Part shown: in pieces, positions 14,728 through 30,194 of the stretch
Layout: every line of letters starts with the position of its first letter
Position numbering within the stretch: position 1 is the stretch's first letter
DNA from: Litchfieldia alkalitelluris
GTDB lineage: Bacteria > Bacillota > Bacilli > Bacillales > Salisediminibacteriaceae
Reading direction: 5' to 3'
Assembly (NCBI RefSeq): GCF_002153425.1
Contig: NZ_KZ119600.1
Coordinates: forward strand, 1,091,714-1,155,713
Length of the DNA stretch: 64,000 nt
The notes under the pieces: generated by a model
Told to the model about the DNA's origin: nothing
The model's database searches: none
Seen by the model: only the letters and a program-made list of their open reading frames with translations
Position numbers and translations under genes: made by a program

Positions 14728-14743
14728 ATACCTGTAAGGGTAT
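14728..14743 (+). promoter_or_regulatory. CstR-like operator 1
   Basis: ATACCTGTAAGGGTAT, a member of the ATAC-N8-GTAT set found seven times in this sulfur region. It lies 55 nt upstream of the tiny ORF at 14798 and just after a possible -10 (TATACA, 14721-14726). Confidence 0.7.
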
Positions 14744-14797
14744 TTAGGGAAGTATTCCTTGTTAGAAATAATATTGTGATGAAAGTAGGTGCAGGAA

Positions 14798-14845
14798 ATG
14801 ACAGAGAAGAAAAAAATTGATGATTCTTGTGGCACTGGTGGTTGA
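14798..14845 (+). CDS. Fifteen-codon ORF with a Cys-Gly-rich end, downstream of a CstR-like operator
   Basis: ATG 14798 opens MTEKKKIDDSCGTGG and stops at TGA 14843-14845. A weak purine-rich site (GTAGGTGCAGG) lies upstream. The ORF sits 55 nt after an operator shared with the sulfur genes, and its only Cys is in a flexible SCGTGG tail. That makes a thiol-reactive peptide or leader possible. After the TGA the frame stays open for 18 more codons (GITSNSRDEVRKQKKMPSV, then TGA); readthrough cannot be excluded or shown. It may instead be a short leader on a regulatory RNA that ends at the 15052 terminator. Confidence 0.35.
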   Translation: MTEKKKIDDSCGTGG

Positions 14846-15051
14846 GGAATAACATCAAATTCTAGGGACGAGGTAAGAAAACAGAAAAAGATGCCATCTG
14901 TTTGACCTGGTACCTGGGTTTGGCTCCTGGTAGGAGTCTATCTGTTGATATCGAAAGTGTTCTTCTAAGGCTACCGTGAAAAAATAGGTTTTGTTTGTTG
15001 GAACAACCTAAGATTAACTCGCTTCCATCCCCTTGCTATCACGCAATGTAT

Positions 15052-15097
15052 AAAAAAGGATAAGGTAGAGAATTTCTCTACTTTATCCTTTTTTTTA
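15052..15097. terminator. Bidirectional rho-independent terminator
   Basis: AAAGGATAAGGTAGAG and CTCTACTTTATCCTTT form a long stem around AATTT with an A-run on one side and eight T on the other. It can end both the rightward transcript from 14728 and the leftward CoA-disulfide reductase gene. Confidence 0.9.
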
Positions 15098-15110
15098 TTC
15101 GAAACAATCA

Positions 15111-16772
15111 TTATTTATTTGATACTAATCCTTTAGCCACTGAATATGTCTTCCAGCCACCATCTAAATTAATAGCATCATAACCGTTTTCTAATAAAAT
15201 TCGAGTAGCTAGATATCCACGAAGACCGACTTGACAATTGATGTAAATGGACTCACCTTTTGGTAGTTCGTCTAAGCGGCCTCTTAGATCACCTAATGGA
15301 ATGTTGATTGAACCTTCAATATAACCACCTTTTAATTCTGAAGGCTCTCTTACATCGATTAAAACTCCCCCGTCCGCAACAACGGAATCAATTTCATCCC
15401 ATTGCACAGTTTTGATACTGTCTTCTAACATATTAGAAGCGACATAACCTGCCATGTTGACAGGATCTTTTGCCGATGAAAATGGAGGTGCATAAGATAA
15501 CTCCAAATCAGTTAAGTCATAAACGTCTAACTCACCTTTAATCGCCGTTGCGATGACGTCAATCCTTTTTTCAACGCCTGTAACACCTACTGCCTGTGCA
15601 CCAAAAACCTTTCCATTCTCAGGAGAGAATAAGAGCTTAAAGTGTATCGGATTTGCCCCTGGATAATATCCAGCATGTGATCCAGGATGGATATGAACAA
15701 CACGATAGTCAATACCTTGCTGCTTAAGTGTTTTTTCATTGTTTCCAGTGGCTGCAATAGTATATTCGAACACTTTTACTACTGCAGTTCCGAGAGTACC
15801 GTGATATTTTTTCCCACGTCCGTAAATGTTATCTGCCACAATTCTTGCTTGACGATTGGCAGGACCAGCAAGGGGAATCATTGCAGGTGCCTGGCTCACG
15901 TAATCTACCACTTCAATGGCATCACCAACAGCAAAGATACTAGGGTCATCTGTTTGTAAAAACTCGTTAACTAGTATTCCACCGCGATTTCCAAGTGGTA
16001 AACCAGCATCTCTTGCCAATTCATTTTCTGGTCTGACACCGATGGAAAGGATGATCATATCAGTAATAACCTCTGTGCCACTGTTCAAAATAACTTTTTT
16101 ACCACGATCCTCAAAAGCCTTAACCCCATCTTCTAAAATGAGGTTGACCCCATGAGCTTTTAACTTATCATGAACGATAGCAGCCATTTCAAAGTCAATT
16201 GGAGCAAGAACTTGATTTGCCATCTCAACAAGGGTTACCTCTATTCCTAGTTCTACTAAATTTTCAACCATTTCTAAACCAATAAATCCTCCACCTACAA
16301 CGACTGCGGATTGAGGCTTCTCTTCTGTCACGTATTTCTTTATGCGATCAGTGTCTGGGACATTTCTCAATGTAAATAAATGTTCCGCATCATTGATTCC
16401 AGGGATTGGTGGAACAATTGGCTTCGCACCAGGTGATAATAATAATACATCATACGATTCTTCATATTGTTCACCTGTACTTAAATTGCGAACTTCTACT
16501 GTTTTATTGTCTCTATTAATTTTTACAACTTCTGTTAAGTTGCGGATGTCGAGGTTATATTTCTTACTCATGCCTTCCACAGTTTGGACGAGGAGCTTTT
16601 CACGCTTGTTAATGGTTCCGCCAATATAATATGGTAGACCACAGTTGGCAAAGGATACATACTCTCCTCTTTCAAACATAATGATTTCTGATTTTTCATC
16701 TAGTCGTCTTAAACGTGCAGCAGCTGTAGCCCCTCCAGCGACTCCCCCAACAATAATAATTTTCTTTGTCAT
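15111..16772 (-). CDS. cdr: CoA-disulfide reductase with C-terminal rhodanese domain (CoADR-RHD)
   Basis: A 553-residue flavoprotein. The FAD Rossmann motif VGGVAGGATAAAR opens the protein, the redox Cys44 sits in SFANCGLPYY, an NAD(P)H-binding motif (VVVGGGFIGLEM) follows near residue 160, and a rhodanese domain fills about 460-553 with active Cys513 (NCQVGLRG). CoADR-RHD enzymes reduce CoA persulfide/polysulfide or disulfide with NAD(P)H and release H2S. The ATG follows GAAAGGGGAAATAAAC. An ATAC..GTAT operator lies 85 nt upstream, so the gene probably belongs to the CstR regulon. Confidence 0.9.
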   Translation of the reverse strand: MTKKIIIVGGVAGGATAAARLRRLDEKSEIIMFERGEYVSFANCGLPYYIGGTINKREKLLVQTVEGMSKKYNLDIRNLTEVVKINRDNKTVEVRNLSTGEQYEESYDVLLLSPGAKPIVPPIPGINDAEHLFTLRNVPDTDRIKKYVTEEKPQSAVVVGGGFIGLEMVENLVELGIEVTLVEMANQVLAPIDFEMAAIVHDKLKAHGVNLILEDGVKAFEDRGKKVILNSGTEVITDMIILSIGVRPENELARDAGLPLGNRGGILVNEFLQTDDPSIFAVGDAIEVVDYVSQAPAMIPLAGPANRQARIVADNIYGRGKKYHGTLGTAVVKVFEYTIAATGNNEKTLKQQGIDYRVVHIHPGSHAGYYPGANPIHFKLLFSPENGKVFGAQAVGVTGVEKRIDVIATAIKGELDVYDLTDLELSYAPPFSSAKDPVNMAGYVASNMLEDSIKTVQWDEIDSVVADGGVLIDVREPSELKGGYIEGSINIPLGDLRGRLDELPKGESIYINCQVGLRGYLATRILLENGYDAINLDGGWKTYSVAKGLVSNK

Positions 16773-16856
16773 GTTTATTTCCCCTTTCTATATTTAAACA
16801 AATGAAATGAGTATATGACTTCACAATAAATTCTACACTTACACTTATTTTTACAT

Positions 16857-16872
16857 ATACCCCTATAGGTAT
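16857..16872. promoter_or_regulatory. CstR-like operator 2, in the divergent region cdr / membrane gene
   Basis: ATACCCCTATAGGTAT, a near-palindrome with ATACC/GGTAT ends. It lies between the leftward cdr and the rightward 17027 operon. A TTGACA for the rightward operon begins only at about 16918, so the site is better placed to control cdr, but both are possible. Confidence 0.72.
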
Positions 16873-17026
16873 ATAAAGAGTATATTACATAAACTAGAAA
16901 AAATCTAGAGTGAGTTATTTGACACTTTTGTGACGGAAATAAAATTAACTTTATGAATGCCTTTCATCAAACTTTCACATTACTTGTTTATCATGGTCCA
17001 TGGAACTTATGGATGAAGGTGATGAC

Positions 17027-17740
17027 ATGAATGCAATACAGGTTGGCCCTGCGATTATTCAGCAATCGTGGATTGTAATAGGGAGCGGGCTGGTGGTTGG
17101 ATACTTATTATTAACATTCAGTTCTCCATTTAAAGGAGAAGGGGGAAAGGAGATTCGAGAGACTATTGGCAATAGCGTAATCACTTTTATTCTGACCTTC
17201 TTATTTGGAACTTTTATATTTCAAATAGACATGGTTATTCGAGACCCTATTGCAGTAATGAGTTATCCAAGCGGTGAGCAAGAACTTTACCTAGCAACGA
17301 TATTTACAATCACTTACTTAATGTATTCTAGTATAAAAAATAAGGTGGGACCGTTTGAATATGTACATGGACTTTTGTACTACCTCTTACCAACTAGCTT
17401 TATATTTGAATTTTGGGTGCAAAGGAATGGAAGGGAAATGTGGGACGGCATTTCGGTGATCCTTCCTTGGGATAATCATCCAATATCATTATATATGTTG
17501 GTTTTTTCAGCAATTCTATTAATTATTTTATTAAAAATAGAGTCAGTGAAAGTTGAACAAAAAGTGATCAATATATTATTAATATGGACCATTACATTGA
17601 ATTTGACTGCTCTCCTAGATGACTATCCTGTTTATTTTGGAATACCAGTCACGCAATGGTTCTACCTGTTTCTCTTATCTATTGTATTAGGTTTAGTAGT
17701 TATAAATCAGATAAAAAAGAAGGGGTTTTATAAATGGTAG
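17027..17740 (+). CDS. Multi-span membrane protein in the ccdA-tlpA operon, function unknown
   Basis: A 237-residue hydrophobic protein with about seven spans and short charged loops. I take ATG 17027 because GAAGGTGATG lies just upstream; the frame is open from 17000. No Cys pair or known motif is evident. The gene overlaps ccdA by 7 nt, so it is translated with the thiol-export genes. Its topology and place suggest a membrane partner for thiol or disulfide transfer, but that is guesswork from context. Confidence 0.7.
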   Translation: MNAIQVGPAIIQQSWIVIGSGLVVGYLLLTFSSPFKGEGGKEIRETIGNSVITFILTFLFGTFIFQIDMVIRDPIAVMSYPSGEQELYLATIFTITYLMYSSIKNKVGPFEYVHGLLYYLLPTSFIFEFWVQRNGREMWDGISVILPWDNHPISLYMLVFSAILLIILLKIESVKVEQKVINILLIWTITLNLTALLDDYPVYFGIPVTQWFYLFLLSIVLGLVVINQIKKKGFYKW

Positions 17741-18477
17741 AGATAGGGAGTATTACGATTTGGGCGGCATTAAGTGCGGGTATCATTTCATTTTTTTCAC
17801 CGTGTACGCTGCCATTATTTCCAGCGTATTTATCTTATATTACGGGGATGAGTGTGAAGGAACTGGAGGCGAACAAAAATATAAAAGTTAGATCAAAATT
17901 ACTTCTTCACTCCGTATTTTTCCTTTTAGGTGTATCGATGATTTTCATGAGCTTAGGGTTTGGAATGACTTACTTTGGCCAATGGATACAAGGTTTGTTT
18001 ACTGGTGATTCTGGCCACCTTATTCAACGATTTGGCGGAATTTTTATTGTATTTATGGGGCTGTTTGTTGCTGGTTGGATTAAATTGGATTGGTTAATGA
18101 AAGAACGCAGACTACATATGGCAAAAAAACCTGTTGGATATATAGGCTCGACCTTTGTTGGAATGGGTTTTGCGGCTGGTTGGACACCGTGTATCGGCCC
18201 CATTTTTGCAGCAATCTTAATGCTTGCAGCAACAAATCCATCACAAGGAGTTTTATATACAGGATTATATATCATTGGATTTGCTATTCCTTTTCTAGTG
18301 TTAACTTTCTTTCTTGGTTCAACGAGGCTGATTACAAAATATAGCGGTATTATCATGAAATTAGGCGGAACATTAATGATCATTATGGGGGTGTTGTTGT
18401 TTACAGGACAGCTTGCGAAAATCTCTATCTTTATTTTGAGATTAATAGAAGGGACATGGCTTGAAAATCTAGGGTAA
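17734..18477 (+). CDS. ccdA: CcdA-type thiol-disulfide transmembrane reductase
   Basis: A 247-residue protein with six spans. The two redox cysteines sit in FSPCTLPLFPAY (Cys24) and AAGWTPCIGPIF (about Cys156), the hallmark of CcdA/DsbD-beta proteins that pass electrons from cytosolic thioredoxin to the outside. Length exceeds a standalone CcdA (about 235) only slightly. It is followed after 14 nt by a TlpA-like thioredoxin, its natural electron acceptor. In this sulfur context the pair may reduce extracellular polysulfide or keep exported rhodaneses reduced (inference). Confidence 0.9.
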   Translation: MVEIGSITIWAALSAGIISFFSPCTLPLFPAYLSYITGMSVKELEANKNIKVRSKLLLHSVFFLLGVSMIFMSLGFGMTYFGQWIQGLFTGDSGHLIQRFGGIFIVFMGLFVAGWIKLDWLMKERRLHMAKKPVGYIGSTFVGMGFAAGWTPCIGPIFAAILMLAATNPSQGVLYTGLYIIGFAIPFLVLTFFLGSTRLITKYSGIIMKLGGTLMIIMGVLLFTGQLAKISIFILRLIEGTWLENLG

Positions 18478-18491
18478 TCTAAAGGAGGAAT

Positions 18492-19097
18492 ATGATGATG
18501 AAAAGAACGATGATAATAGCTGTAATTTTAGTAGGTATGATTGGTTGGACACTATATGAATCACTCGGTTCAAATGATGGAGTATTACAGGATCAACTAG
18601 ATGAGAATATTGAAAGTGAAACTGGAGAAGGTACACCTGAGAAAGTTGAATCAGATATACCGGAAGAGGATATTGGGATTACTCAGGGTATGTATGCGCC
18701 TGATTTTGAACTTGCCACTCTAGATGGAGAGACCGCAAAGCTTTCAGACTATAGGGGGCAAAAAATCATGTTAAACTTCTGGGCAACGTGGTGCCCGCCA
18801 TGTAGGGCAGAAATGCCTGATATGCAACGGGTTTATGAAGAACATGATGATGCCATGATTCTTGCCGTGAATCTAACAGAAACAGAGACGGGCGTAGCAC
18901 AGGTAGAGAGCTTTGCAGAGGATTTTGGATTAACTTTTCCAATTTTACTAGATGAACATGTGGAGGTAGCAGGAACTTTTGGAATTCAACCAGTACCTAC
19001 TTCATTTATGATTAATACAAAAGGAAGAATAGATAGTATTGCAATAGGACCGATGAATGAAGACATGATTATACAAAGATTTAATGAAATGGATTAA
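18492..19097 (+). CDS. Membrane-anchored TlpA/ResA-like thioredoxin
   Basis: A 201-residue protein with one N-terminal membrane helix (about 5-22), a Glu/Asp-rich linker to about residue 62, then a TlpA-like thioredoxin fold with NFWATWCPPCRAEMP (Cys101, Cys104) and the cis-Pro loop in VPTSF. It would act outside the membrane as electron acceptor of CcdA. AAAGGAGGAAT precedes three consecutive ATG codons, so the start could be 18492, 18495 or 18498. ResA-type proteins reduce apocytochrome c; no haem-attachment genes are close, so a persulfide-related role is equally likely. Confidence 0.87.
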   Translation: MMMKRTMIIAVILVGMIGWTLYESLGSNDGVLQDQLDENIESETGEGTPEKVESDIPEEDIGITQGMYAPDFELATLDGETAKLSDYRGQKIMLNFWATWCPPCRAEMPDMQRVYEEHDDAMILAVNLTETETGVAQVESFAEDFGLTFPILLDEHVEVAGTFGIQPVPTSFMINTKGRIDSIAIGPMNEDMIIQRFNEMD

Positions 19098-19140
19098 GAT
19101 AGTAGGAAGAAGTGCGGAAAGAAAGAAGTGGTGAAGTGTA

Positions 19141-19821
19141 ATGAAGCAACTAGTTTTAGTTGTAGAAGATGATGAGATGATACGTAATTTAGTTGAAATT
19201 TACTTAGAAAAAGAAGGTTATGATGTGATCACTGCAGGTGATGGGGAGGAAGCAAAGGAGATGTTTCTCCAGCATTCTCCATGCCTAGTTCTTCTAGACT
19301 TAATGCTTCCTAAGGTTAGTGGAGAAGAAGTATGTCAGTGGATTAGGGAACAGGAAAAAAATGAAGTATCGATCATCATGCTTACAGCAAAAATAAGCTC
19401 AGAAGATAAAATTAATGGGTTGAAAATAGGTGCTGATGATTACGTCATTAAACCATTTAGCCCTGAGGAATTAATGGCAAGGGTCGAAGCAGTGTTGAGG
19501 CGAGGGGGACAGTTCTGCCAAAAAATTAGTCATCAAGGTTTGACGATTAAACCTCGTAAAGGAGAGGTACTGCTAAATGGGGAACCACTACACTTAACAA
19601 AATATGAGTTTAATCTATTATTTTACTTTATGGAAAACCCCAATATAGTTCTGTCCAGAGAACAATTGATCAATCAAATTCACCCTTATGCAGATACGGC
19701 AATTATGGATCGGACAATTGATGCACATATAAAAAAACTTCGTGAAAAAATTGAAGAGACACCATCTGACCCAAAAAGAATTATGACAGTGCGTGGAATG
19801 GGGTATCGCTTTGTTGTTTAA
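19141..19821 (+). CDS. OmpR/PhoB-family response regulator
   Basis: A 226-residue regulator. The receiver domain fills about 1-115 with phosphorylation site Asp53 (LLDLMLPK), acidic pair Asp10-Asp11 and Lys in YVIKPF. A winged-helix domain with KYEFNLLFY and the C-terminal VRGMGYRFVV follows. It is transcribed with the thiol-export genes and overlaps the kinase gene. Targets are unknown; it may regulate this operon. Confidence 0.9.
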   Translation: MKQLVLVVEDDEMIRNLVEIYLEKEGYDVITAGDGEEAKEMFLQHSPCLVLLDLMLPKVSGEEVCQWIREQEKNEVSIIMLTAKISSEDKINGLKIGADDYVIKPFSPEELMARVEAVLRRGGQFCQKISHQGLTIKPRKGEVLLNGEPLHLTKYEFNLLFYFMENPNIVLSREQLINQIHPYADTAIMDRTIDAHIKKLREKIEETPSDPKRIMTVRGMGYRFVV

Positions 19822-20896: not shown

Positions 20897-20936
20897 AACA
20901 GTCAAGTTGGTATGGCTTCATACCTTGACTGTTTTT
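20897..20936 (+). terminator. Rho-independent terminator of the ccdA-tlpA-TCS operon
   Basis: AACAGTCAAGTTGGTATG pairs with CATACCTTGACTGTTTTT around GCTT. The hairpin starts at the kinase stop codon and closes the five-gene operon. Confidence 0.9.
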
Positions 20937-20972
20937 AGTTTTTTATGGAGTTTATAAATGGCTCCGAAATCA

Positions 20973-21173
20973 AAATGAAGACTGAAATGGAGTAGCGAAG
21001 CGATTTGAGTCTTCATTTTCTCAAAATGGAGACTGAAACGAGGAAGCGAAGCGATTTGAGTCTTCATTTTCTCAAAATGGAGACTGAACTGGAGTGGCGA
21101 AGCAATTTCAGTCTTCATTTTCTCAAAATGAAGACTGAACTGAGGAAGCAAAGCGATTTGAGTCTTCATTCTG
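20973..21173. repeat. 51-bp tandem repeat array C, 4 units (GAAGACTGAA family)
   Basis: Four units with an exact 51-bp period; the ATG of ATGAAGACTGAA or ATGGAGACTGAA falls at 20975, 21026, 21077 and 21128. Each unit begins with this motif and ends with its complement TTTGAGTCTTCATTTT, so each folds into a hairpin. The same family occurs at 45930-46280. The following 250 nt up to the MBL gene contains nothing I can name. Confidence 0.9.
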
Positions 21174-21431
21174 GTTATTTGAAAGAATACGGTATAGGTT
21201 TCAATAGCCAGGAATCATTATCGCATTCCAGAATACGCATTCCAAAGAATATGATCAGGACCCAGAACAACAGTGCGACATCTGCTCATTCTTCGCAGTG
21301 TCTTCTTTGGCGTGGGCAAGACGAACTATCACCAACCCTAGTTTATATTTTCAAGTGAGCATACTTTTAAATAGGGGAGATAGCAATACGACGTCAGTAT
21401 ATAGGGCAGGTTATGAGTTGAGGTGATGGAC

Positions 21432-22565
21432 ATGGAACAAAAAAATGATGTCACAGAAATACCTGTAGACGTATTAGCACAGAAAGTCCTAGACGGAGAG
21501 CAGTTATTTATTTTAGATGTTAGAACTACAGATGCGTTTGACGATTGGAAAATTGAAGGAGAGAACGTTGAGATCATCAATAAACCCTATTTTGAACTGA
21601 TAGACAGTATTGACTCTATCATGCACCAGCTTCCCAAAAATAATCCTATCTATGTGATCTGTAACAAAGGAGGTTCGTCACAGATGGTAGGACAGAATAT
21701 AAAAGAAGCAGGGTATGAAAATGTATTGTCTATTAAAGGTGGAATGAATGCATGGAGTGAGTTACTAGTTCCAATAAAGATTGGTGATATATCAGGTGGA
21801 GAAATCACCCAATTTGTTCGTATTGGAAAGGGGTGCCTATCCTATCTCATTGAATCTAATGGGGAATGCGCCATTGTTGATACAAATCGTATGATCGATC
21901 AGTACGAAGATTTTATTAAGAAAAATAAATTACAGCTTAAGCATTTAATTGATACACATCTTCATGCAGACCATATTTCGGGTGGAAGAATATTAGCTGA
22001 GAAAACTGGAGCAACATATCATCTTCCTCCAAAGGACGCAGAGGAAGTAACTTTTAGTTATAGTTCATTGGAGGAAGGTGAAGAGATAAAGATAGGAGAC
22101 GTCATTATTCAAGTGCTATACTCCCCTGGGCATACGATTGGTAGCACGTCACTCATTGTGGACGAGAAATACTTATTGACTGGAGATATACTATTTGTTG
22201 ATTCTATCGGAAGACCTGATTTAGCAGGGAAAGCGGAAGACTGGGTAAATGACCTTAGGCAAACATTGTATAAAACGTATAGGAATCTTGCAGATAACTT
22301 GTATGTCTTACCTGCTCATTATATGGGAATAAATGAAATGAGTAAGAACGGAAGTATAGTGGAAAAATTAAGTGTTTTATTTGAAAGAAATCATGGGTTA
22401 AACATTGAGTCAGAAGAAGAGTTTAGAAAAACAGTTTCAGAAAATCTCCCACCGCAGCCCAATTCATATCAACAGATACGTGATACAAATATGGGGAGAT
22501 TGAACCCTGATTTTGATAAGCAAAGGGAAATGGAGATTGGACCGAATCGCTGTGCTGTAAGATAA
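21432..22565 (+). CDS. Rhodanese-MBL fusion, CstB/persulfide dioxygenase-like (copy 1)
   Basis: A 377-residue protein. An N-terminal rhodanese-like domain (about 8-112) has Cys77 in [10 protein letters not shown] metallo-beta-lactamase domain follows from about 120, with the metal motif THLHADH (His176, His178, Asp180, His181), GHTIGS (His234) and GDILF (Asp252). Such MBL proteins oxidise glutathione, CoA or bacillithiol persulfides to sulfite. S. aureus CstB has the MBL first; here the order is reversed and no C-terminal rhodanese is present. It ends in GPNRCAVR, kept in copy 2. The frame opens at GTG 21423; ATG 21432 fits the GAGGTGATG ribosome site best. No operator was found close upstream. 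Confidence 0.85.
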
Positions 22566-22570
22566 GGGAA

Positions 22571-22604
22571 GGGGAGGGGGTACCAATGGTACAACCTCCT
22601 TTTC
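22571..22604 (+). terminator. Terminator after the first rhodanese-MBL gene
   Basis: AGGGGGTACC and GGTACAACCT pair around AAT, and the second arm runs into CCTTTTC. It separates the gene from the SulP operon. Confidence 0.6.
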
Positions 22605-22634
22605 ACTGTTTGAAATGATATTTGTGTCAATTTG

Positions 22635-22683
22635 TTGACAGTTTATGAAATTATAATTATTATAGATATACGGGTAGGGGTAT
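22635..22683 (+). promoter_or_regulatory. SigA-type promoter with CstR-like operator 3 for the SulP operon
   Basis: TTGACA (22635-22640), a 17-bp spacer and TATTAT (22658-22663) form a good housekeeping promoter. ATACGGGTAGGGGTAT (22668-22683) covers the expected start point, a position where a bound repressor would block initiation. Confidence 0.78.
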
Positions 22684-22779
22684 ATGGAGAAGGCTCACTA
22701 CGGTGGGCATATATATTTTTTGTTATTTTTTTCAATAAACCTATATTCGAGATAAAGATAATAAGAGGGGGAGATATAA

Positions 22780-24483
22780 TTGCTAAAAAAATATATAACT
22801 GCATTAGAATGGATCCCACAATATGATAAATCTCATTTAAGAGGTGACTTTTCAGCAGGATTAATCGTAGCCATCATGCTAATTCCACAGGGGATGGCAT
22901 ATGCAATGCTTGCTGGATTACCCCCTGTTATTGGGTTGTATGCAGCAACAGTACCACTTCTTATTTATGCATTATTTGGTACATCAAGGCACCTAGCAGT
23001 TGGGCCAGTAGCAGTCGTCTCCCTTCTAGTTCTGTCAGGTGTATCAACAATTGCAGAGCCAGGGACATCAGAATATATAGCCTATGTATTATTGCTAATG
23101 TTGATGGTTGGTGTCATTCAGTTTTTAATGGGAGTGTTAAGGTTAGGGTTCCTAGTGAACTTCTTGTCACATGCTGTCATTAGTGCCTTTACCTCTGCTG
23201 CAGCAATTATCATTGGGCTAAGTCAGTTGAAACATTTAATAGGGGTAAAACTTGAGGCTGATAAAAATGTCTTCATGATACTTTATGAGTCTGTAGCTAG
23301 AATACAAGAAATAAACCCGATTACATTTGGCATCGGTATCAGTGGAATTTTAATATTAATTGTAATGAAAAAATACTTACCCAAGATACCTGCACCGCTT
23401 GTTGTTGTTGGTTTGAGTATTATGATCGTTCAGTTTTTGCAATTAAACCAATCTGGTGTCAGTATTGTAGGTCATGTACCAGAAGGACTACCGGGTTTGT
23501 CAATTCCTGCAGTCACTATTGATGGATTAATAAAATTGCTTCCTGTTGCACTGACAATTTCATTCATAGGTTTTATGGAATCCATTGCGATGGCAAAAGC
23601 AATTGCTGCGAAGGAAAAGTACAAAGTGGATCCGAATAAGGAATTGATTGGATTAGGTCTTGCCAATGTTGGTGGATCATTCTTCTCTGGTTATCCAGTA
23701 ACAGGTGGGTTTTCTAGGTCTGCCGTGAATTATCAGTCTGGAGCTAAAACACCATTAGCTTCTCTTATAACTGCAGTCTTAATACTATTAACCTTACTTT
23801 TTTTCACAGGATTCTTTTATTATTTACCAAATGCTGTTTTAGCAGCGATCATCATGGTAGCTGTATACAACTTGATCGATGTAAAAGAGGCAAAGCATTT
23901 ATTCCAAATACGTTCCCTTGATGGGTGGACTTGGGTAATAACGTTTATTGGCACATTAGCGATAGGTGTTGAGCAAGGAATACTCATTGGTGTTATTTTC
24001 TCTTTACTTGTTTACCTTTGGAAAAGTGCCTATCCACATATGGCAGAACTCGGGTTTTTAGAAGAAGAGAAAGTCTATAGGAATATCAAACGTTTTCCAG
24101 AAGCGAAGGTAAATCCAAAAGTAATGATCTATCGGATTGACTCAGATCTTTTCTTTGCGAATATGACTTTTCTAGAAGATAAGCTATGCGACAAAATTCA
24201 AGATAAGCCTGATACAAAGTGGATTGTACTAGATTTTTCAGGAGTTAATGGCATTGATGCAGTGTCGATTCACGCATTAGAAGAAATGATGGAGTCTTGC
24301 GGTAGAGGGGAAATAGGATTTCTCTTTGCTGGTGTGAAGGGACCAGTGCGAGACTTATTGAATAGGGCTCATTGGGAAGAAAAATACGGTGACAACTATA
24401 AATACTTGACGATTGAACATGCATTAAGGGTTATTGAAGAAGGTGATGATCATGGAAGACATGATGTTAAAGGAAAAAAATGA
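22780..24483 (+). CDS. SulP-family anion transporter with STAS domain
   Basis: A 567-residue transporter. It begins LKKYITALEWIPQYDKSHLRGDFSAG and has the SulP signature MLIPQGMAYAMLAGLPPVIGLY, about ten to twelve spans, and a cytosolic STAS domain from about residue 440 with the DFSGVNGIDAVSIHAL strand-helix. SulP proteins carry sulfate, bicarbonate or other anions. The TTG start is set by AGAGGGGGAG upstream. A beta-carbonic anhydrase gene overlaps its end. Some SulP proteins are fused or linked to carbonic anhydrase, which would favour bicarbonate, while the regulon favours sulfate, sulfite or thiosulfate export or import. Substrate undecided. Confidence 0.87.
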   Translation: MLKKYITALEWIPQYDKSHLRGDFSAGLIVAIMLIPQGMAYAMLAGLPPVIGLYAATVPLLIYALFGTSRHLAVGPVAVVSLLVLSGVSTIAEPGTSEYIAYVLLLMLMVGVIQFLMGVLRLGFLVNFLSHAVISAFTSAAAIIIGLSQLKHLIGVKLEADKNVFMILYESVARIQEINPITFGIGISGILILIVMKKYLPKIPAPLVVVGLSIMIVQFLQLNQSGVSIVGHVPEGLPGLSIPAVTIDGLIKLLPVALTISFIGFMESIAMAKAIAAKEKYKVDPNKELIGLGLANVGGSFFSGYPVTGGFSRSAVNYQSGAKTPLASLITAVLILLTLLFFTGFFYYLPNAVLAAIIMVAVYNLIDVKEAKHLFQIRSLDGWTWVITFIGTLAIGVEQGILIGVIFSLLVYLWKSAYPHMAELGFLEEEKVYRNIKRFPEAKVNPKVMIYRIDSDLFFANMTFLEDKLCDKIQDKPDTKWIVLDFSGVNGIDAVSIHALEEMMESCGRGEIGFLFAGVKGPVRDLLNRAHWEEKYGDNYKYLTIEHALRVIEEGDDHGRHDVKGKK

Positions 24484-25003
24484 AGCATTTATTCAAAATA
24501 TAAAAAAGGTAGAGCCTGCCTATTTTGATGAACTAAAAAAAGGACAGCATCCTGAATACTTTGTACTTGCTTGTAGCGATTCCAGAGTCAGTCCGTCTGT
24601 TATTACTCAGATGCCTCTAGGAAAGTTATTTGTCCATAGAAATATAGCAAATCAGGTAGCGGAACAGGATGAAAGTTTTTCAGCTAGTCTCTATTATGCA
24701 TTAAAACATTTAAAGGTTAAAAAAATAGTCATTCAAGGACATACTGATTGTGGTGGGGTCAAAGCAGCAAGGAACGATAATGATGAGTCTGAACTGAGGG
24801 GATGGCTTGGCAATATTAAAAGGAGTCTGCCTGAAAAAGGAAATAGTGAGACATGTTCCTTAGAAGATTTGACCAAAATAAACGTATTAGAGCAAGTCAA
24901 ACACTTAAAGGAACACCCTATATATCAGGAGTATGGAGAAGGCATTGAAATAATTGGCTGTCTATTCCATGTAGAAACAGGATTAATTGAGTGGATTAAT
25001 TAA
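24452..25003 (+). CDS. Beta-class carbonic anhydrase
   Basis: A 183-residue enzyme interconverting CO2 and bicarbonate. Zinc ligands are readable: Cys41 and the Asp43-Arg45 dyad in ACSDSR, His97 and Cys100 in GHTDCGG. The frame opens at TTG 24434, but ATG 24452 has AAGGTG seven bases upstream; both overlap the transporter gene, so translation is coupled. Its place behind SulP in a CstR-controlled operon suggests it supplies or removes bicarbonate for transport, or handles a related substrate such as CS2 or COS, which some beta-carbonic anhydrase relatives hydrolyse (inference). Confidence 0.87.
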   Translation: MEDMMLKEKNEAFIQNIKKVEPAYFDELKKGQHPEYFVLACSDSRVSPSVITQMPLGKLFVHRNIANQVAEQDESFSASLYYALKHLKVKKIVIQGHTDCGGVKAARNDNDESELRGWLGNIKRSLPEKGNSETCSLEDLTKINVLEQVKHLKEHPIYQEYGEGIEIIGCLFHVETGLIEWIN

Positions 25004-25030
25004 TACTAAAATAAAGGAGCTTGATAAAAG

Positions 25031-25420
25031 ATGTTTCATTATACGGTAGAAACAACAATGGATATGCCAAAGGCGATTGAGAATTTAGAAGCTTCACTCA
25101 AAGAAGAAGGTTTTGGAGTATTATGGGATTTTGATTTGAAAGGTAAGCTTGAGGAAAAAGGGCTAGAGTATGATTCAGAAACGAGAATACTAGAAGTGTG
25201 TAATCCTCATGAAGCCAAAAGAGTATTAGAGATGAATAAATTAGCAGGTTACTTTCTGCCTTGTAAAATAGTAGTATTTTCTGATGATGAAGGAAGAACG
25301 AAAATAGGCATGCCAAAACCTACTGCTTTAATAGAAGCAGTTAAGGACGATAAACTAATGGAAATCGCTGAAGATATTGAAAAAAGATTAATCCATTGTA
25401 TTGATAAGATTGTTAAATAA
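25031..25420 (+). CDS. DUF302 protein
   Basis: A 129-residue soluble protein of the DUF302 type: it opens MFHYTVETTMDMPKAIENLEASLKEEGFGVLWDFD and continues with EVCNPHEAKRVLEMN and the LPCKIVVF strand. Cys56 and Cys77 lie in conserved-looking positions. DUF302 proteins are common beside sulfur- and metal-related genes but have no assigned reaction. Third gene of the SulP operon; AAAGGAGCTTG precedes the ATG. Confidence 0.8.
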   Translation: MFHYTVETTMDMPKAIENLEASLKEEGFGVLWDFDLKGKLEEKGLEYDSETRILEVCNPHEAKRVLEMNKLAGYFLPCKIVVFSDDEGRTKIGMPKPTALIEAVKDDKLMEIAEDIEKRLIHCIDKIVK

Positions 25421-25449
25421 TTCTACTCTCTTAGGAAGGAGTTAAGGTG

Positions 25450-25479
25450 TTGACTTTTATACCTGTAGGGGTATATAAT
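25450..25479 (+). promoter_or_regulatory. Promoter with CstR-like operator 4 before the rhodanese-cstR operon
   Basis: TTGACT (25450-25455) and TATAAT (25474-25479) are 18 bp apart. ATACCTGTAGGGGTAT (25459-25474) lies between them, so a bound repressor would cover the promoter. Because cstR is in this operon, autoregulation is likely. Confidence 0.82.
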
Positions 25480-25511
25480 GATTCTTGTAACTTCATAAAG
25501 GAGTGGATGTA

Positions 25512-25898
25512 ATGATTAAGAAAAACATCATTTATGTTATACCATTATTATTTTTACTAGCGATTTTTGGATTTCAATCCATCTCTGCACTAGGAACAGA
25601 AGAGATTACAACTTCAGAACTAGGGGACTTACTGGATCAACCCAATGATTACTTTTTTGTGGACGTAAGGGAAGTTCACGAGTATAATGAGGCGCATATC
25701 AATGGAATGGTCAATGTTCCATTAAGTACTTTAAATAGTGATTATCACAACATACCAAAGGATAGAACAGCAGTTATTTTTTGCCGTAGCGGTAATCGAA
25801 GCCTACAGGCAATAAAGATTCTTGAGGATCTCGGATATGAGAATCTGATTAATGTCAAAGGTGGAATGCTTGCCTGGGAAGGGGAAGTAGTAAACTAA
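25512..25898 (+). CDS. Exported rhodanese-like sulfurtransferase
   Basis: A 128-residue protein with an N-terminal hydrophobic segment (about 5-27, IIYVIPLLFLLAIFGF) that would export or anchor it, then one rhodanese domain with the active site CRSGNRS (Cys91). It probably transfers sulfane sulfur outside the membrane. ATG 25512 follows AAGGAGTGGATGTA; the GTG at 25503 is a poorer choice. First gene of the cstR operon. Confidence 0.85.
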   Translation: MIKKNIIYVIPLLFLLAIFGFQSISALGTEEITTSELGDLLDQPNDYFFVDVREVHEYNEAHINGMVNVPLSTLNSDYHNIPKDRTAVIFCRSGNRSLQAIKILEDLGYENLINVKGGMLAWEGEVVN

Positions 25899-25920
25899 AA
25901 GATATAGAAAAGGGTGTGTC

Positions 25921-26322
25921 ATGAATACGATACTGGGTATTTTGATTTTAATCAGCTTTATGATACTTTCTGCACAATTATATCAACGGTATTTTCCAGT
26001 GTATGGTGTGAAGTGTATACACCCAGAGAAAGTTTCTAAGGATACGATTTTATTAGATATTAGGGACTACAACGTAGCCTATAAACTGGAAGCCGCAAGT
26101 AAAGAAAACATCCCATTGCCATATTTAAAGCGATTCTCTGATGAGATTAAGGGAAAGAAAATTGTCGTAATTTCATCAGACTTGGCAGGGAAAAATTTAT
26201 GTGTACGTTATTTAAGGAAAAAAGGCTTTGATGTCAGGGGATATTATATTTTAGGTGAATCAGATAAATCGAAGGTTCTACATTTTTTGAATCCAAGGAG
26301 GAGGGAATGTCGTGAAATATAA
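25921..26322 (+). CDS. Membrane-anchored rhodanese-like protein lacking the active-site Cys
   Basis: A 133-residue protein: one membrane helix (about 4-20), then a rhodanese-like fold (ILLDIRDYNVAYKLEAAS, KENIPLPYL, the IVVISSD strand and LCVRYLRKKGFDVRGYY). Where an active rhodanese has Cys-x4-Arg, this protein has SSDLAGKN, so it cannot form the usual persulfide. It may bind or scaffold partners, or use one of its other cysteines. It overlaps cstR by 11 nt. Confidence 0.72.
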   Translation: MNTILGILILISFMILSAQLYQRYFPVYGVKCIHPEKVSKDTILLDIRDYNVAYKLEAASKENIPLPYLKRFSDEIKGKKIVVISSDLAGKNLCVRYLRKKGFDVRGYYILGESDKSKVLHFLNPRRRECREI

Positions 26323-26572
26323 TGATCAAATGAAAAACAGAGTAAAGAGAATTGAGGGTCAAGTGAAGGCGATTCTCCGTATGATGGAAGAGGAAAAGGA
26401 TTGTAAAGATATTGTCATTCAAATGTCTGCAGCGAGAAATGCCCTTGACCGAACGTTAGGCTTAGTTGTTAGCTCTAATTTAGAGCAGTGTGTAAGGGAT
26501 CAAATTGAAAAAGGGGAAGATACAGAACCTCTTATTCAAGAAGCGGTAAATTTATTAGTGAAAAGTAGATAA
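26312..26572 (+). CDS. cstR: CstR, persulfide-sensing CsoR-family repressor
   Basis: An 86-residue all-helical repressor of the CsoR/DUF156 family. Cys31 and Cys60 fall exactly at the two CstR thiol positions. The His of the copper-sensing CsoR motif is Asn56 (SSNLEQC). By known CstR chemistry, reaction with polysulfide or thiol persulfide crosslinks the two cysteines and releases DNA. The GTG start follows AAGGAGGAGGG. It overlaps the preceding gene and is probably autoregulated through the operator at 25459. Confidence 0.9.
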   Translation: MKYNDQMKNRVKRIEGQVKAILRMMEEEKDCKDIVIQMSAARNALDRTLGLVVSSNLEQCVRDQIEKGEDTEPLIQEAVNLLVKSR

Positions 26573-26576
26573 GGTA

Positions 26577-26629
26577 AATTCAATGCAGGTCGATGTTGCA
26601 AAGGTTTATAAAAGTATCTGCATTGAATT
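26577..26629. repeat. Inverted repeat after cstR
   Basis: AATTCAATGCAG and CTGCATTGAATT (12 bp) are separated by 29 nt. There is no T-run behind the second arm. It may limit readthrough from cstR, or stabilise the 3' end. Confidence 0.5.
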
Positions 26630-26687
26630 CTCGTACTTGTTTAACACTGTTATCATGATGCTTATATAAAAATTCAGTTTAAAAGTA

Positions 26688-26731
26688 TTGACACCACCTC
26701 ATTGCGGGTGTTAATATACCCCTATAGGTAT
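26688..26731 (+). promoter_or_regulatory. Promoter with CstR-like operator 5
   Basis: TTGACA (26688-26693), 18 bp, TAATAT (26712-26717). ATACCCCTATAGGTAT (26716-26731) overlaps the -10 end and the start point. Identical to operator 2. Confidence 0.8.
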
Positions 26732-26797
26732 TTGTGGTGTCAACGAAAGGTTTTTACTTTCATAAGTCAAACAGTAATAATTTTTTTACCAAAAAAT

Positions 26798-26813
26798 ATA
26801 CCTGTACTGGTAT
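26798..26813 (+). promoter_or_regulatory. CstR-like operator 6
   Basis: ATACCTGTACTGGTAT, 82 bp downstream of operator 5 and 40 nt before the dsrE2 start. Two operators in tandem resemble the double operator of S. aureus cst and could allow looping or stronger repression. Confidence 0.7.
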
Positions 26814-26852
26814 ATGTAAAATAAATATTAATTAATTGAGGAGTGACAAGGC

Positions 26853-27332
26853 ATGTCAGAAAAGAAGAAAACAACAATCGTATTATTCAGTGGGGATTAT
26901 GATAAGGCCATGGCGGCATACATCATCGCAAACGGTGCGGCTGCTTATGATCATGAGGTCACCATTTTCCATACTTTCTGGGGACTAAATGCTTTAAGAA
27001 AAGAGAATGCAGAGCCGATTAAGAAGGGCTTCTTGGAAAACATGTTTGGGAAGATGATGCCTAAGGGTGCTGACAAGATGGGCCTTTCTAAGATGAATTT
27101 TGCTGGCATGGGGCCAAAGATGATCAAAAAGGTCATTAAGAAGCACAATGCTATGACGCTTCCACAGTTAATTGAGATGGCTCAGGAGCAAGATGTGAAG
27201 CTCGTAAGTTGTACGATGACAATGGATTTGCTTGGTTTAGATGAAAAGGAGTTATTAGATGGTATTGAATATGCAGGTGTTGCCGCATATTTAGGGGACG
27301 CTTCAGAGGGTAACGTAAACTTATTTATATAA
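26853..27332 (+). CDS. DsrE2-type (DsrE/DsrF/DrsH-like) sulfur carrier
   Basis: A 159-residue protein of the DsrE2 branch: VLFSGDYDKAMAAYIIANGAAAYDHEVTIFHTFWGL, a Met/Lys-rich centre (LSKMNFAGMGPKM) and Cys120 in LVSCTMTMDLLGL. The central segment could touch the membrane. DsrE2 proteins accept sulfane sulfur and work with TusA and rhodanese, often from one operon as here. In S. aureus these activities are fused in CstA; here they are separate genes. GAGGAGTGACAAGGC precedes the ATG. Confidence 0.88.
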   Translation: MSEKKKTTIVLFSGDYDKAMAAYIIANGAAAYDHEVTIFHTFWGLNALRKENAEPIKKGFLENMFGKMMPKGADKMGLSKMNFAGMGPKMIKKVIKKHNAMTLPQLIEMAQEQDVKLVSCTMTMDLLGLDEKELLDGIEYAGVAAYLGDASEGNVNLFI

Positions 27333-27386
27333 GATGCACTAGACTAAGACTTATTCCATTATTCCAACATGAAAGGTGATAGCTAA

Positions 27387-27752
27387 ATGGACTGGATTTT
27401 AAATATATTAATTTTTGCAGTAGCTGGTTGGTTTCTTTACTCAAGGATCATGCCAGCTAAAGGGATTAAACAAGTGACGACAGCAGATTTGAAGCAAATG
27501 GTAAAGGAAAAGAAGAAGTATCAGTTTGTCGATGTGCGTACTGCGATGGAGTTTCGTGGTGATAGTATTAAAGGCTTTAAGAATATTCCTGTGCACGAGT
27601 TGAAGCAGCGTGTGCAAGAGCTAGAAAAGGATAAAGAGGTAGTTGTTATTTGCCAAAGTGGAATGAGAAGTAATAAGGCTAGTAAGTTACTTAAAAAATT
27701 AGGTTTCACAAAGATTTATAACGTGAAGGGCGGCATGTCTGCCTGGAGTTGA
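27387..27752 (+). CDS. Membrane-anchored rhodanese-like sulfurtransferase
   Basis: A 121-residue protein with an N-terminal membrane helix (about 3-20) and one rhodanese domain with CQSGMRS (Cys89) and the closing GGMSAWS. The basic stretch after the helix (KGIKQV...KEKKKYQ) favours a cytosolic catalytic domain. It would hand sulfur between DsrE2, TusA and thiols at the membrane. Confidence 0.85.
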   Translation: MDWILNILIFAVAGWFLYSRIMPAKGIKQVTTADLKQMVKEKKKYQFVDVRTAMEFRGDSIKGFKNIPVHELKQRVQELEKDKEVVVICQSGMRSNKASKLLKKLGFTKIYNVKGGMSAWS

Positions 27753-27774
27753 TAAAGATGGAGGAGGAAATGGA

Positions 27775-28104
27775 ATGAACATTCATGAGATGTCACCACT
27801 AGAGGTGCAAGCAGCAATTGAAAACAAGGAAGGCTATAAAGTTATTGATGTCCGTGAGCCGATGGAAGTAGAGGCTGGAAGAATTCCTGAATCTATCAAT
27901 ATTCCTTTGGGGGAGATTCCAGAGAGCATAGCTAAGCTTGATAAAGACGGGAAATATATCCTTGTTTGCAGGTCAGGTGCTCGAAGTTTTAATGCAACTT
28001 TATTCCTTGCATCAAAAGGCTTTCATGTAACAAACATGGCTGGCGGGATGATGGATTGGAATGGACCTGTCTCATCAGATTTGGAAGGGGTGTACGAAGG
28101 ATGA
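27775..28104 (+). CDS. Single-domain cytosolic rhodanese
   Basis: A 109-residue rhodanese: IDVREPMEVEAGRIP, INIPLGEIP, active site CRSGARS (Cys65), closing GGMMDWNG. No signal peptide. A strong GGAGGAGG site precedes the ATG, and its stop overlaps the next start (ATGA). Confidence 0.88.
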   Translation: MNIHEMSPLEVQAAIENKEGYKVIDVREPMEVEAGRIPESINIPLGEIPESIAKLDKDGKYILVCRSGARSFNATLFLASKGFHVTNMAGGMMDWNGPVSSDLEGVYEG

Positions 28105-28673
28105 TTAAAACAGATCAAGTTTTAGACGCAAAAGGGCTTGCTTGTCCAATGCCGATTGTAAAAACAAAGAAGACAATAACTAATATGGAACCTGGTCAAG
28201 TACTAGAGGTTCAAGCAACAGATAAAGGTTCTACTGCAGACTTAAAAGCATGGACGGAGCGAGTTGGTCATCAATATTTGGGAACGGTGGAAGAGTCGGG
28301 GACGCTACACCATTATGTTCGTAAAACTACGGATTCAGAAGAAAAGCAGGAAACAACGTATGAGGTAGTTGTAAACAATGATGAACTTCAACGGAAGCTT
28401 GAGTCGTCGGAAGATCTGACGGTAGTTGATGTCCGGGAAGAAGCAGAGTATTCCTTCAATCATATTCCAGGTGCGATATCGATTCCAATGGGAGAATTGG
28501 ACAACCGCCTTGATGAGCTAGGGAAAGATGATGAAATTTATGTAATCTGTCGTACTGGTACACGTAGTGATCTAGCTGCACAAAAGCTTGCTGATCGAGG
28601 ATTCAACAAGGTAACGAATGTTGTGCCAGGTATGAGTGACTGGAATGGTCCAACAGAAAAAAGTATTGGGTAA
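28101..28673 (+). CDS. TusA-rhodanese fusion sulfur transferase
   Basis: A 190-residue protein. An N-terminal TusA domain has LDAKGLACPMPIVKTKK with Cys15. A rhodanese domain from about residue 88 carries DVREEAEYSFNHIP and CRTGTRS (Cys150). S. aureus CstA joins rhodanese, TusA and DsrE; here TusA and rhodanese are joined in the other order and DsrE2 is separate. ATG 28101 overlaps the preceding stop by 4 nt, so I prefer it to the upstream open frame from 28056. It would relay sulfane sulfur from Cys15 to Cys150 or back. Confidence 0.87.
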   Translation: MIKTDQVLDAKGLACPMPIVKTKKTITNMEPGQVLEVQATDKGSTADLKAWTERVGHQYLGTVEESGTLHHYVRKTTDSEEKQETTYEVVVNNDELQRKLESSEDLTVVDVREEAEYSFNHIPGAISIPMGELDNRLDELGKDDEIYVICRTGTRSDLAAQKLADRGFNKVTNVVPGMSDWNGPTEKSIG

Positions 28674-28718
28674 TGATTTTGCAAATTATTTCAGGGTGAA
28701 AAAAATTTTAACTAGAAT

Positions 28719-28734
28719 ATACTGTAGGGGGTAT
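28719..28734 (+). promoter_or_regulatory. CstR-like operator 7, overlapping the ribosome binding site
   Basis: ATACTGTAGGGGGTAT. Its AGGGGG also forms the Shine-Dalgarno site of the second rhodanese-MBL gene, whose ATG is 28737 or 28740. As no room remains for a promoter downstream, the site could act as a roadblock to readthrough from the dsrE2 operon, or on a promoter further upstream. Confidence 0.65.
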
Positions 28735-28736
28735 AT

Positions 28737-29867
28737 ATGATGGCGATTAGGGAAATGGACGCTAAAGAAGTTACGAGGAAAGTAATGAACAAAAAGGAAT
28801 TATTTATTTTAGATGTTCGGAATGAAGATGCGTTTAGTGATTGGAAAATTGAAGGGGAAAACTTAACACACTTAAACGTACCGTACTTTGATTTACTTGA
28901 CGGACTTGATGAAATAAAAGATCAGCTACCTTCTGACAAAGAGATTTTAGTTGTTTGTGCGAAAGAGGGCTCGTCTATTATGGTCGCAGAAATGCTCTCT
29001 GATGAAGGCTATGAAGCTGCTTATTTAAAAGGTGGCATGAAAGCATGGAGTGAGCATTTAGAGCCAGTTAAGGTTGGGGACCTTGCAGATGGGGGCGAAA
29101 TGTACCAGTTTGTAAGAATCGGGAAAGGTTGTTTATCTTATATGGTTGTTTCGAACGGTGAAGCTGCCATCATCGATGCAACAAGAATGACAGATGTATT
29201 TATTGATTTTGCAGATAGTCTAGGGGTTCAGATTAAGCATGTATTTGATACGCATTTACACGCAGACCACATTTCAGGTGGAAGAATGATTGCAGAAAAA
29301 ACTGGTGCAGTTTACTGGCTACCACCAAAAGATGCGGAGGAAGTTCAATTCTCTTATGAACCATTAGTAGATGGAAATGATGTGAAAATAGGGAACACAA
29401 CGATTAATATCCACCCCCTATACTCACCAGGGCACACCATTGGTTCCACATCATTTGTCGTTGATGAGAAATATTTGTTATCAGGGGATATCTTGTTTGT
29501 AGATTCTATCGGGCGGCCTGATTTAGCTGGTTTAGCAGAGGATTGGGTTGGTGACTTACGAGAAACTTTATACGAAAGATATAAGGAATTGTCGGATGAA
29601 CTAATGGTTCTTCCTGCACACTTTATGATTATAGATGAGTTAAATGATGATGGTAGTGTTGGGGAAAAATTAGGTGTCCTGTTTGCAGAGAATCATGGAT
29701 TGAATATTGAGAATGAAGCCGAGTTCCGTAGTTTAGTCACGGATAATTTACCACCTCAACCAAATGCGTATCAAGAAATTCGTAAGACAAATATGGGTAA
29801 GATTACACCAGATGAAGAAGAGCAGCGTGAAATGGAAATTGGTCCTAACCGCTGTGCAGTGAGATAA
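28737..29867 (+). CDS. Rhodanese-MBL fusion, CstB/persulfide dioxygenase-like (copy 2)
   Basis: A 376-residue paralogue of the 21432 gene with the same domain order. The rhodanese-like part has VVCAKEGSS (Cys74); the MBL part has [18 protein letters not shown] and [13 protein letters not shown]. Both copies end [12 protein letters not shown], so the C-terminal Cys is conserved. The two are similar along their whole length, suggesting duplication. Expected role: oxidation of low-molecular-weight thiol persulfides to sulfite and thiosulfate. ATG 28737 and 28740 are both possible. Confidence 0.86.
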
Positions 29868-29872
29868 AAAAG

Positions 29873-29921
29873 TTCCGGGACCTGGTCCCCGAACAAAAAT
29901 TCGGGGACCAGGTCCCGCACA
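29873..29921. repeat. Large palindrome, GGGACCTGGTCCC type
   Basis: CGGGACCTGGTCCCCGAA and TTCGGGGACCAGGTCCCG are perfect complements separated by CAAAAA. The GC-rich hairpin lies six bases after the MBL stop and 40 nt before tusA. Similar GGGACCTGGTCCC palindromes are scattered in Bacillaceae genomes. It may act as a partial terminator. Confidence 0.85.
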
Positions 29922-29960
29922 ATTTTGTGAAATTTTATTCTAAAACAGGAGTGATTATTA

Positions 29961-30194
29961 ATGAGTTTCAATACAGATATTTTATTAGACGCAAAAGGGT
30001 TAGCATGTCCTATGCCAATCGTAAAGACAAAAAAAGAAATGGATAAAATAGAGTCAGGGCAGGTGATTGAAATCCATGCTACAGATAAGGGGGCAAAGGC
30101 TGACCTTACTGCGTGGGCAAAGTCTGGTGGGCATGAACTATTAGGACATGAGGAAGAAAATGGTGTCTATATATTCTGGATTAAAAAAGGATAA
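29961..30194 (+). CDS. tusA: TusA-family sulfur carrier
   Basis: A 77-residue single-domain sulfur carrier. LDAKGLACPMPIVKTKKEMD carries the acceptor Cys16, and the rest follows the TusA/SirA fold with IEIHATDKGAKADL. It is similar to the TusA part of the 28101 fusion. Last gene of the island, ended by the terminator at 30247. AGGAGTG precedes the ATG. Confidence 0.9.
   Translation: MSFNTDILLDAKGLACPMPIVKTKKEMDKIESGQVIEIHATDKGAKADLTAWAKSGGHELLGHEEENGVYIFWIKKG

Follow-up and report, generated by a model that had tools for sequence, protein, structure and literature searches.

A putative CstR-type persulfide regulon in Litchfieldia alkalitelluris with a SulP operon and a probable two-selenocysteine membrane protein

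How far does the control of a persulfide-sensing repressor reach when copies of its presumed operator are spread over 15 kb of sulfur genes, and what is the short reading frame behind the outermost copy? Both questions are raised by a gene cluster of Litchfieldia alkalitelluris, which we analysed within a 64,000-nucleotide stretch of DNA (the window, whose numbering is used unless noted) of the 4.88-Mb genome of this bacterium (G000; other genomes are given G numbers and fetched loci L numbers). The cluster quite likely represents a CstR (YrkD-type) persulfide-response regulon that works on ATAC-N8-GTAT operators and includes a SulP operon as well as a membrane protein with two selenocysteines. 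We place this confidence in the regulon because its sites are clustered and more frequent than expected by chance, their spacing separates them from CsoR sites, a matrix built from them transfers to 80 other loci, they persist in a related genome (G002) far from cstR, and either TauE or SulP is found in 50/50 cst loci. The selenoprotein part is trusted because two TGA codons are kept in 8/8 aligned sequences and the genome carries selA, selB and tRNA-Sec as well as a selD that depends on read-through of its own.

Predicted operators and their repressor

The seven 16-bp sites reported in a preliminary description of this DNA are all present at their positions:

14728 to 14743, + strand: CstR-type operator (N8), 54 bp ahead of the start codon (ATG) of the two-TGA gene, score 22.7
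16857 to 16872, - strand: CstR-type operator before CoADR-RHD, in a region shared with the divergent operon at 17027, score 23.6
22668 to 22683, + strand: CstR-type operator before SulP, score 22.6
25459 to 25474, + strand: CstR-type operator before the rhodanese-25921-cstR genes, flanked by the two hexamers of a promoter-like match (25450-25479), score 25.1
26716 to 26731, - strand: CstR-type operator, upper of a pair before DsrE, score 23.6
26798 to 26813, + strand: CstR-type operator, lower of the pair before DsrE, score 20.4
28719 to 28734, + strand: CstR-type operator before CstB, weakest of the seven, score 16.4

Exact ATAC-N8-GTAT occurs nine times in the window, against a mean of 1.03 and a maximum of 3 in shuffled sequence. 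The ends are insufficient to define a site, because the end pattern alone is found 91 times in the whole genome. The ATACCTRTAGGGGTAT consensus with at most two mismatches, in turn, yields 11 sites in the genome, 7 of them within this 15-kb cluster, namely six of the listed sites and an intragenic one at 21459. Under a matrix made from the seven, they score 16.4-25.1 (leave-one-out 9.9 to 24.0), and the best score in the window beyond the cluster is 12.6. One point weighs against the regulon reading: the site at 28719 lies more than three mismatches from the consensus and has the lowest matrix score, including the leave-one-out value of 9.9. The two exact matches beyond the seven, at 25925 and 21459, are both intragenic and were dropped as operators, the former with a score of 8.5, the latter despite a score of 16.7, as it lies inside the second CstB gene and is absent from G003 and G005. 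Three near-consensus sites off the cluster (genome positions 4396034, 1067341 and 532432) are in or beside genes without evident sulfur function and were likewise set aside. Four of the seven sites had been said to overlap or adjoin readable promoters; promoter-like hexamers do occur at or near 14728, 22668, 25459, 26716, 26798 and 28719, but none is listed for 16857, and such hexamers carry no weight alone, because the scan found 44 against 56.1 in shuffles. Counts of near-consensus sites across 35 family genomes were uninformative, with 35/35 genomes matching and a reversed-pattern control often equally high.

The repressor gene was correctly located inside the cluster (26312-26572), and its product carries the two cysteines, C31 and C60, together with an asparagine, N56, instead of the CsoR-type histidine that would bind copper. 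It matches PF02583 (Trns_repr_metal, DUF156) with 85.8 bits (cutoff 22.8), the three residues are invariant in 17/17 close homologs, and cstR adjoins DsrE, TusA, rhodanese and CstB-type genes. At E 0.001, the genome encodes two proteins of the CsoR/CstR family, this repressor and a His-type CsoR, the gene of which stands beside one for a small metal-binding-domain protein that we take to be like CopZ. That some or all of the seven sites belong to this copper sensor would be in keeping with the common family of the two regulators, both encoded here, and with the likeness of their operators, which share ATAC/GTAT ends and a G tract; yet the spacing makes it highly improbable. The CsoR gene of this genome is preceded by ATAC-N9-GTAT, not N8. 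An N9 site is found near 11/11 CsoR-type genes (with an automatic reading of residue 56 in 4 of these 11 loci) and an N8 site near none of them, whereas N8 sites occur near 11/30 CstR genes and N9 sites near 0/30. Over 80 named CstR loci, N8 was counted 225 times, N9 11 times and each other spacing in the 5-12 range between 4 and 23 times. CsoR sites have been published as TAC-X9-GTA (PMC3902906; here and below, papers are cited from excerpts of their text). The seven sites are therefore of the CstR kind, and operator spacing may separate persulfide from metal regulons of the CsoR family by sequence alone.

A reading frame with two TGA codons

Behind the outermost operator, the preliminary description had noted a tiny open reading frame as a possible further target. 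It does exist, starting at 14798, but was misread: it is the first 15 codons of a longer frame that runs through TGA, and ordinary annotation misses the gene for the same reason.

14798 to 14968, + strand: unannotated gene of 56 codons, TGA at codons 16 (14843-14845) and 36 (14903-14905), stop TAA; probable two-selenocysteine single-span membrane protein
14922 to 14938, + strand: hairpin GGCTCC-TGGTA-GGAGTC, resembling a selenocysteine insertion sequence (SECIS-like), 17 nt behind the second TGA

With TGA read as selenocysteine (U), the product has 56 residues, among them U16 and U36, and is hydrophobic towards its C terminus (1.99 as the best mean over 17 residues). Behind site 14728, four congeners show 72-79% conservation of the DNA, and homologs with both TGAs were found in congeners G002, G003, G005 and G006 and, by profile, in Cytobacillus oceanisediminis pBO1 and in Bacillus sp. 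FJAT-29937, B1-b2 and PS06; the search covered about 2 Mb of the L. alkalitelluris genome and the fetched loci, most of which are cst neighbourhoods. In an alignment of eight sequences (L185 and L189 were left out as repeats of the pBO1 protein), both TGAs are kept in 8/8, and C11, G14, U16, P33, U36, P37, G38, W42, L44, G46 and L50 are invariant. Cys forms at the TGA places were absent among the loci searched, which do not amount to a whole database, and the 2 Mb held no second copy (one match at E 0.33). A DNA pattern for the 15-codon peptide, which demanded non-conserved residues, matched only this genome. The protein has no NCBIfam match at E 10 and a single Pfam match at E 0.063, below cutoff; no literature search with selenium terms was made for it.

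The genome has the means to decode such a frame. When spaced pieces of it were probed with E. coli sequences, selA and selD were found, followed by selB and tRNA-Sec close by (genome contig C1):

2555803 to 2557260: selA (TIGR00474, 527 bits, cutoff 268)
2558333 to 2559394: selD, TGA-containing (TIGR00476, 383 bits, cutoff 125)
2568654 to 2570663: selB (tblastn alone: 28.4% over 637 aa, E 1e-66)
2571330 to 2571422: tRNA-Sec (RF01852, 55.1 bits, gathering threshold 47)

All four lie within about 16 kb (2.556-2.571 Mb; L319, L327). The selD gene needs TGA read-through at SSKAG-U-GCKIGP, where E. coli SelD has Cys; elsewhere in the genome TGA still acts as a stop, e.g. behind the 27387 rhodanese gene. 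Because selA, selB, tRNA-Sec and a TGA-containing selD are present, the 56-residue product is probably a two-selenocysteine protein, with the first TGA as the weaker of the two.

Several observations weigh against this reading. The hairpin behind the second TGA shows no compensatory change (its GGCTCC/GGAGTC stem is paired in 41/42 cells over 7 distinct rows), and, while it is the lowest-energy fold in the L. alkalitelluris, G002, G003 and Bacillus/Cytobacillus rows, it is not so in G005 and G006. Behind the first TGA there is no stable shared hairpin. The N-terminal frame of G006 is broken by one base, so that its protein aligns only from the Cys onward. Synonymous codon changes are few (between L. 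alkalitelluris and G002, 1/9 behind the second TGA and 4/15 between the TGAs). These last three points, together with strong nucleotide conservation around the hairpin, would suit a short leader peptide that ends at the first TGA and is followed by a structured RNA rather than a selenoprotein gene. We nonetheless regard such a leader as quite unlikely: differences at codon positions 1, 2 and 3 number 47, 11 and 58 behind the second TGA, where second-position changes are thus rarest (11 of 116), the product has a membrane-helix pattern, the genome carries the full selenocysteine machinery, and Rfam gave one sub-threshold match only over 10000-34000. Besides, the frame is kept over both TGAs in congeners as well as in Bacillus/Cytobacillus, despite an inter-TGA stretch that is shorter by whole codons in the latter and has no in-frame ATG, GTG or TTG there.

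Another alternative is a product with a single selenocysteine, made from an ATG four codons before the second TGA, with the first TGA as a plain stop. This would agree with a hairpin placed only behind the second TGA and with an ATG at that place in L. alkalitelluris, G002, G003 and G005; however, the ATG is replaced by TTG (L) in G006 and is absent from the Bacillus/Cytobacillus homologs, which renders this option unlikely as well. For the two-selenocysteine protein, the codon-position differences (70, 50 and 100 between the TGAs) and the few synonymous changes led us to regard the membrane part, which lies behind the second TGA, as likely coding and the stretch between the TGAs as less certainly so.

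Whether this gene belongs to the regulon is answered differently by its neighbours and by its upstream sites. The gene stands beside CoADR-RHD in G002, G003 and G005, and in Bacillus/Cytobacillus follows a rhodanese gene within the cst cluster; the persulfide link by neighbourhood thus holds in 8/8 homologs, in a search that was biased to cst neighbourhoods. By operator it holds in 2/8, which counts against a general link: within 400 bp upstream, a CstR-type site with a score of at least 14 is present in L. alkalitelluris (22.7) and G006 (17.0), and none in G002, G003, G005, FJAT-29937, PS06 or pBO1. This suggests CstR control of the two-TGA gene in L. alkalitelluris and G006.

The scan for further TGA-containing genes was run against classified genes. 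Near the cst cluster of Bacillus sp. PS06, a rhodanese gene carries TGA (L186:6188-6190) where 9/9 matches have the active-site Cys, and may possibly encode a selenocysteine rhodanese. The pBO1 locus holds an unannotated IscA/HesB-like frame with an in-frame TGA (GIG-U-GGP; L216:15026-15298), the best match of which, NF038090 (IscA_HesB_Se), stays at 50.2 bits below the cutoff of 85. Excerpts of a paper on selenium genes (PMC5322559) contained nothing on Bacillaceae for the terms searched.

Probable reach of the regulon

The genes of the cluster are as follows:

15111 to 16772, - strand: CoADR-RHD, CoA-disulfide/persulfide reductase with a rhodanese domain
21432 to 22565, + strand: second CstB-like protein (rhodanese and metallo-beta-lactamase fold)
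22780 to 24483, + strand: SulP anion transporter, first gene of the operon of SulP, carbonic anhydrase (CA) and DUF302
24446 to 25003, + strand: beta-type CA (Pro_CA), gene overlaps the SulP gene
25031 to 25420, + strand: DUF302 protein
25512 to 25898, + strand: rhodanese with an N-terminal membrane segment
25921 to 26322, + strand: small membrane-anchored protein without a Pfam family, gene overlaps cstR
26312 to 26572, + strand: CstR repressor, 86 aa (C31, N56, C60)
26853 to 28673, + strand: DsrE-like protein, two rhodaneses and a TusA-rhodanese fusion
28737 to 30194, + strand: CstB-like persulfide dioxygenase-rhodanese and TusA

Exact sites recur in congeners before SulP (G002, G007), the 25512-type rhodanese (G002, G003, G005), DsrE (G002, G003, G005, G007), CstB (G003, G005, G007) and CoADR-RHD (G002), and sites with one mismatch precede both CoADR-RHD and SulP in G003 and G005. 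In G002, the SulP-CA-DsrE-CstB cluster lies 1.16 Mb away from cstR and the sites are still present; in G008, CstR was not found at E 1e-15 and neither of the two scanned SulP genes is preceded by a site. The window matrix was then transferred to 80 named loci, none of which had been used to build it. It placed sites upstream of SulP in 9/14 cases, CoADR-RHD in 5/10, the 25512-type rhodanese in 8/14, DsrE in 44/78, CstB in 20/53 and the second CstB in 1/15, compared with 41/1326 unclassified open reading frames. As CA (0/7) and DUF302 (5/24) rarely have sites of their own, they would mostly be reached via the SulP promoter. Two points temper these numbers: the p values of the 80-locus comparison ignore relatedness, with L185 and L189 as near-duplicates, and among 34 scanned SulP loci (L. 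alkalitelluris included) 9 have an exact G/C-rich site in the interval from -400 to +60, and 13 have one if up to one mismatch is allowed.

The proposal that CstR control extends to CoADR-RHD, SulP, CA and DUF302 hence gains from comparison for CoADR-RHD and for the SulP-CA-DUF302 operon, though for CA and DUF302 mostly through the SulP promoter, and comparative evidence supports well a CstR/YrkD-type regulon that takes in both. The claim of a gene set wider than described needs narrowing, since control of CoADR-RHD has already been reported, as CoAPR, in Enterococcus faecalis (PMC9405070), but the SulP arm does look new.

What might SulP do in this regulon? The ORF listing of the window cluster contains SulP and no TauE-like frame. 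Among the 50 of the 80 loci that have a DsrE at 70% identity or more, 40 have TauE alone, 8 SulP alone, 2 both and none neither (Fisher p 8e-8, without regard to relatedness); the full set of 80 loci gives 42, 10, 2 and 26, respectively. SQR is absent from the L. alkalitelluris genome at E 1e-40, and SulP and SQR stand side by side on the same strand in 4/6 family genomes with this SQR (G032, G034, G024, G028; L219-L222 with L076-L079); these four SulP loci lack a CstR-type site at score 12. Because TauE and SulP exchange in cst loci and SulP occurs beside SQR, we propose SulP as a sulfur-oxyanion exporter that most likely takes the place of TauE, the sulfite exporter; the exchange offers a testable transporter function.

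Outside the window, a VKOR gene (G000:C1:2625540-2626172; L047:9540-10172) is preceded by two N8 sites 30 bp apart. The product matches PF07884 (73.4 bits, cutoff 27.5), and in the 35 family genomes, L. alkalitelluris included, 13/13 VKOR orthologs have such a pair, 30-33 bp apart and at most 110 bp upstream, with scores from 12.4 to 23.6. Given the N8 spacing, VKOR is likely a further CstR target, although in some genomes with the pair CstR is solely of a more distant kind (52-64% identity). The idea that VKOR replaces SQR found no support, with SQR in 3/13 genomes that have VKOR and 3/22 that do not. Within the literature searched, no paper contained both "SulP" and "CstR", or both "VKOR" and "CstR", as whole words, and the SulP and VKOR arms look new.

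Site 16857 sits between CoADR-RHD and a divergent operon for a membrane protein, CcdA, TlpA and a two-component system. CstR control of the latter gained no support, with sites before CcdA in 0/7, TlpA in 0/9, the response regulator in 0/9 and the histidine kinase in 0/6 cases. Tandem-like repeats of about 52 bp (TCTTCATTTTCTCAAAATG...) occupy 20940-21170, between a kinase gene and the second CstB gene, and a long inverted repeat (CGGGACCTGGTCCCCGAA...) lies at 29876-29917, between CstB and TusA.

Proposed course and comparison with known systems

From these data we infer that reduced CstR tetramers would sit on the 16-bp operators at about six promoters until C31 and C60 of adjacent subunits are linked by persulfide or polysulfide and CstR is released. 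The induced set would comprise sulfur carriers (DsrE, TusA, rhodaneses), the persulfide dioxygenase CstB, the CoA-persulfide reductase CoADR-RHD and the SulP-CA-DUF302 operon, in which SulP would expel the sulfur oxyanions made by CstB in place of TauE. At the left edge, the two TGA codons would be read as selenocysteine to give the 56-residue single-span protein, with C11-x4-U16 and with U36 at the membrane face, probably a selenol-based redox carrier for persulfides or disulfides. A more far-reaching version is offered tentatively: CstR may control a new family of membrane-anchored two-selenocysteine proteins which, at the membrane face, draw sulfane sulfur or electrons from persulfides and perhaps hand them on to a CcdA/TlpA or VKOR/quinone system, so that the persulfide response would be partly selenium-dependent, with SulP replacing TauE. 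We had considered this version evenly balanced and now hold it with somewhat less confidence, because the upstream site is found in 2/8 homologs. If the frame is translated through both TGAs, it would define a selenoprotein family absent from the NCBIfam and Pfam libraries searched, and, if the extended version is true, selenium would be tied to sulfane-sulfur sensing and persulfide handling.

Against this background, the core of the cluster is the known YrkD/CstR system, whose control over the genes for DsrE, TusA, rhodanese, CstB-like proteins and TauE is established (PMC9918477, PMC5480029). The YrkD regulon of Bacillus licheniformis MW3 likewise has a CstR-like repressor, the binding of which is lost with elemental sulfur, along with yrkE (DsrE), yrkF (TusA-rhodanese), yrkH (CstB-like) and yrkI (TusA), but it forms a single 11-gene cluster with TauE, NreBC, sqr and pdo (PMC9918477), whereas the present locus has several promoters, SulP-CA-DUF302, CoADR-RHD and the two-TGA gene. 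CstR of Staphylococcus aureus is also a two-cysteine persulfide sensor of the CsoR family that acts on CstA/CstB-type genes, yet its direct control was considered likely to be confined to one operon (PMC5480029). A CsoR-family regulator controls sulfur oxidation in Thermus (PMC10318464). The CstR-CoAPR system of E. faecalis shares with ours the control of a CoA-persulfide reductase with a rhodanese domain and of rhodaneses; SulP, CA, DUF302, VKOR or a selenoprotein are not mentioned in the excerpts of that report (PMC9405070). The two-TGA gene, finally, resembles genes for bacterial selenoproteins such as SelD and HesB-like proteins in its in-frame TGA, its host with selA, selB, selD and tRNA-Sec, and the hairpin behind one TGA, and differs from them in carrying two TGAs within a single-span membrane peptide and in lacking an NCBIfam match at E 10.

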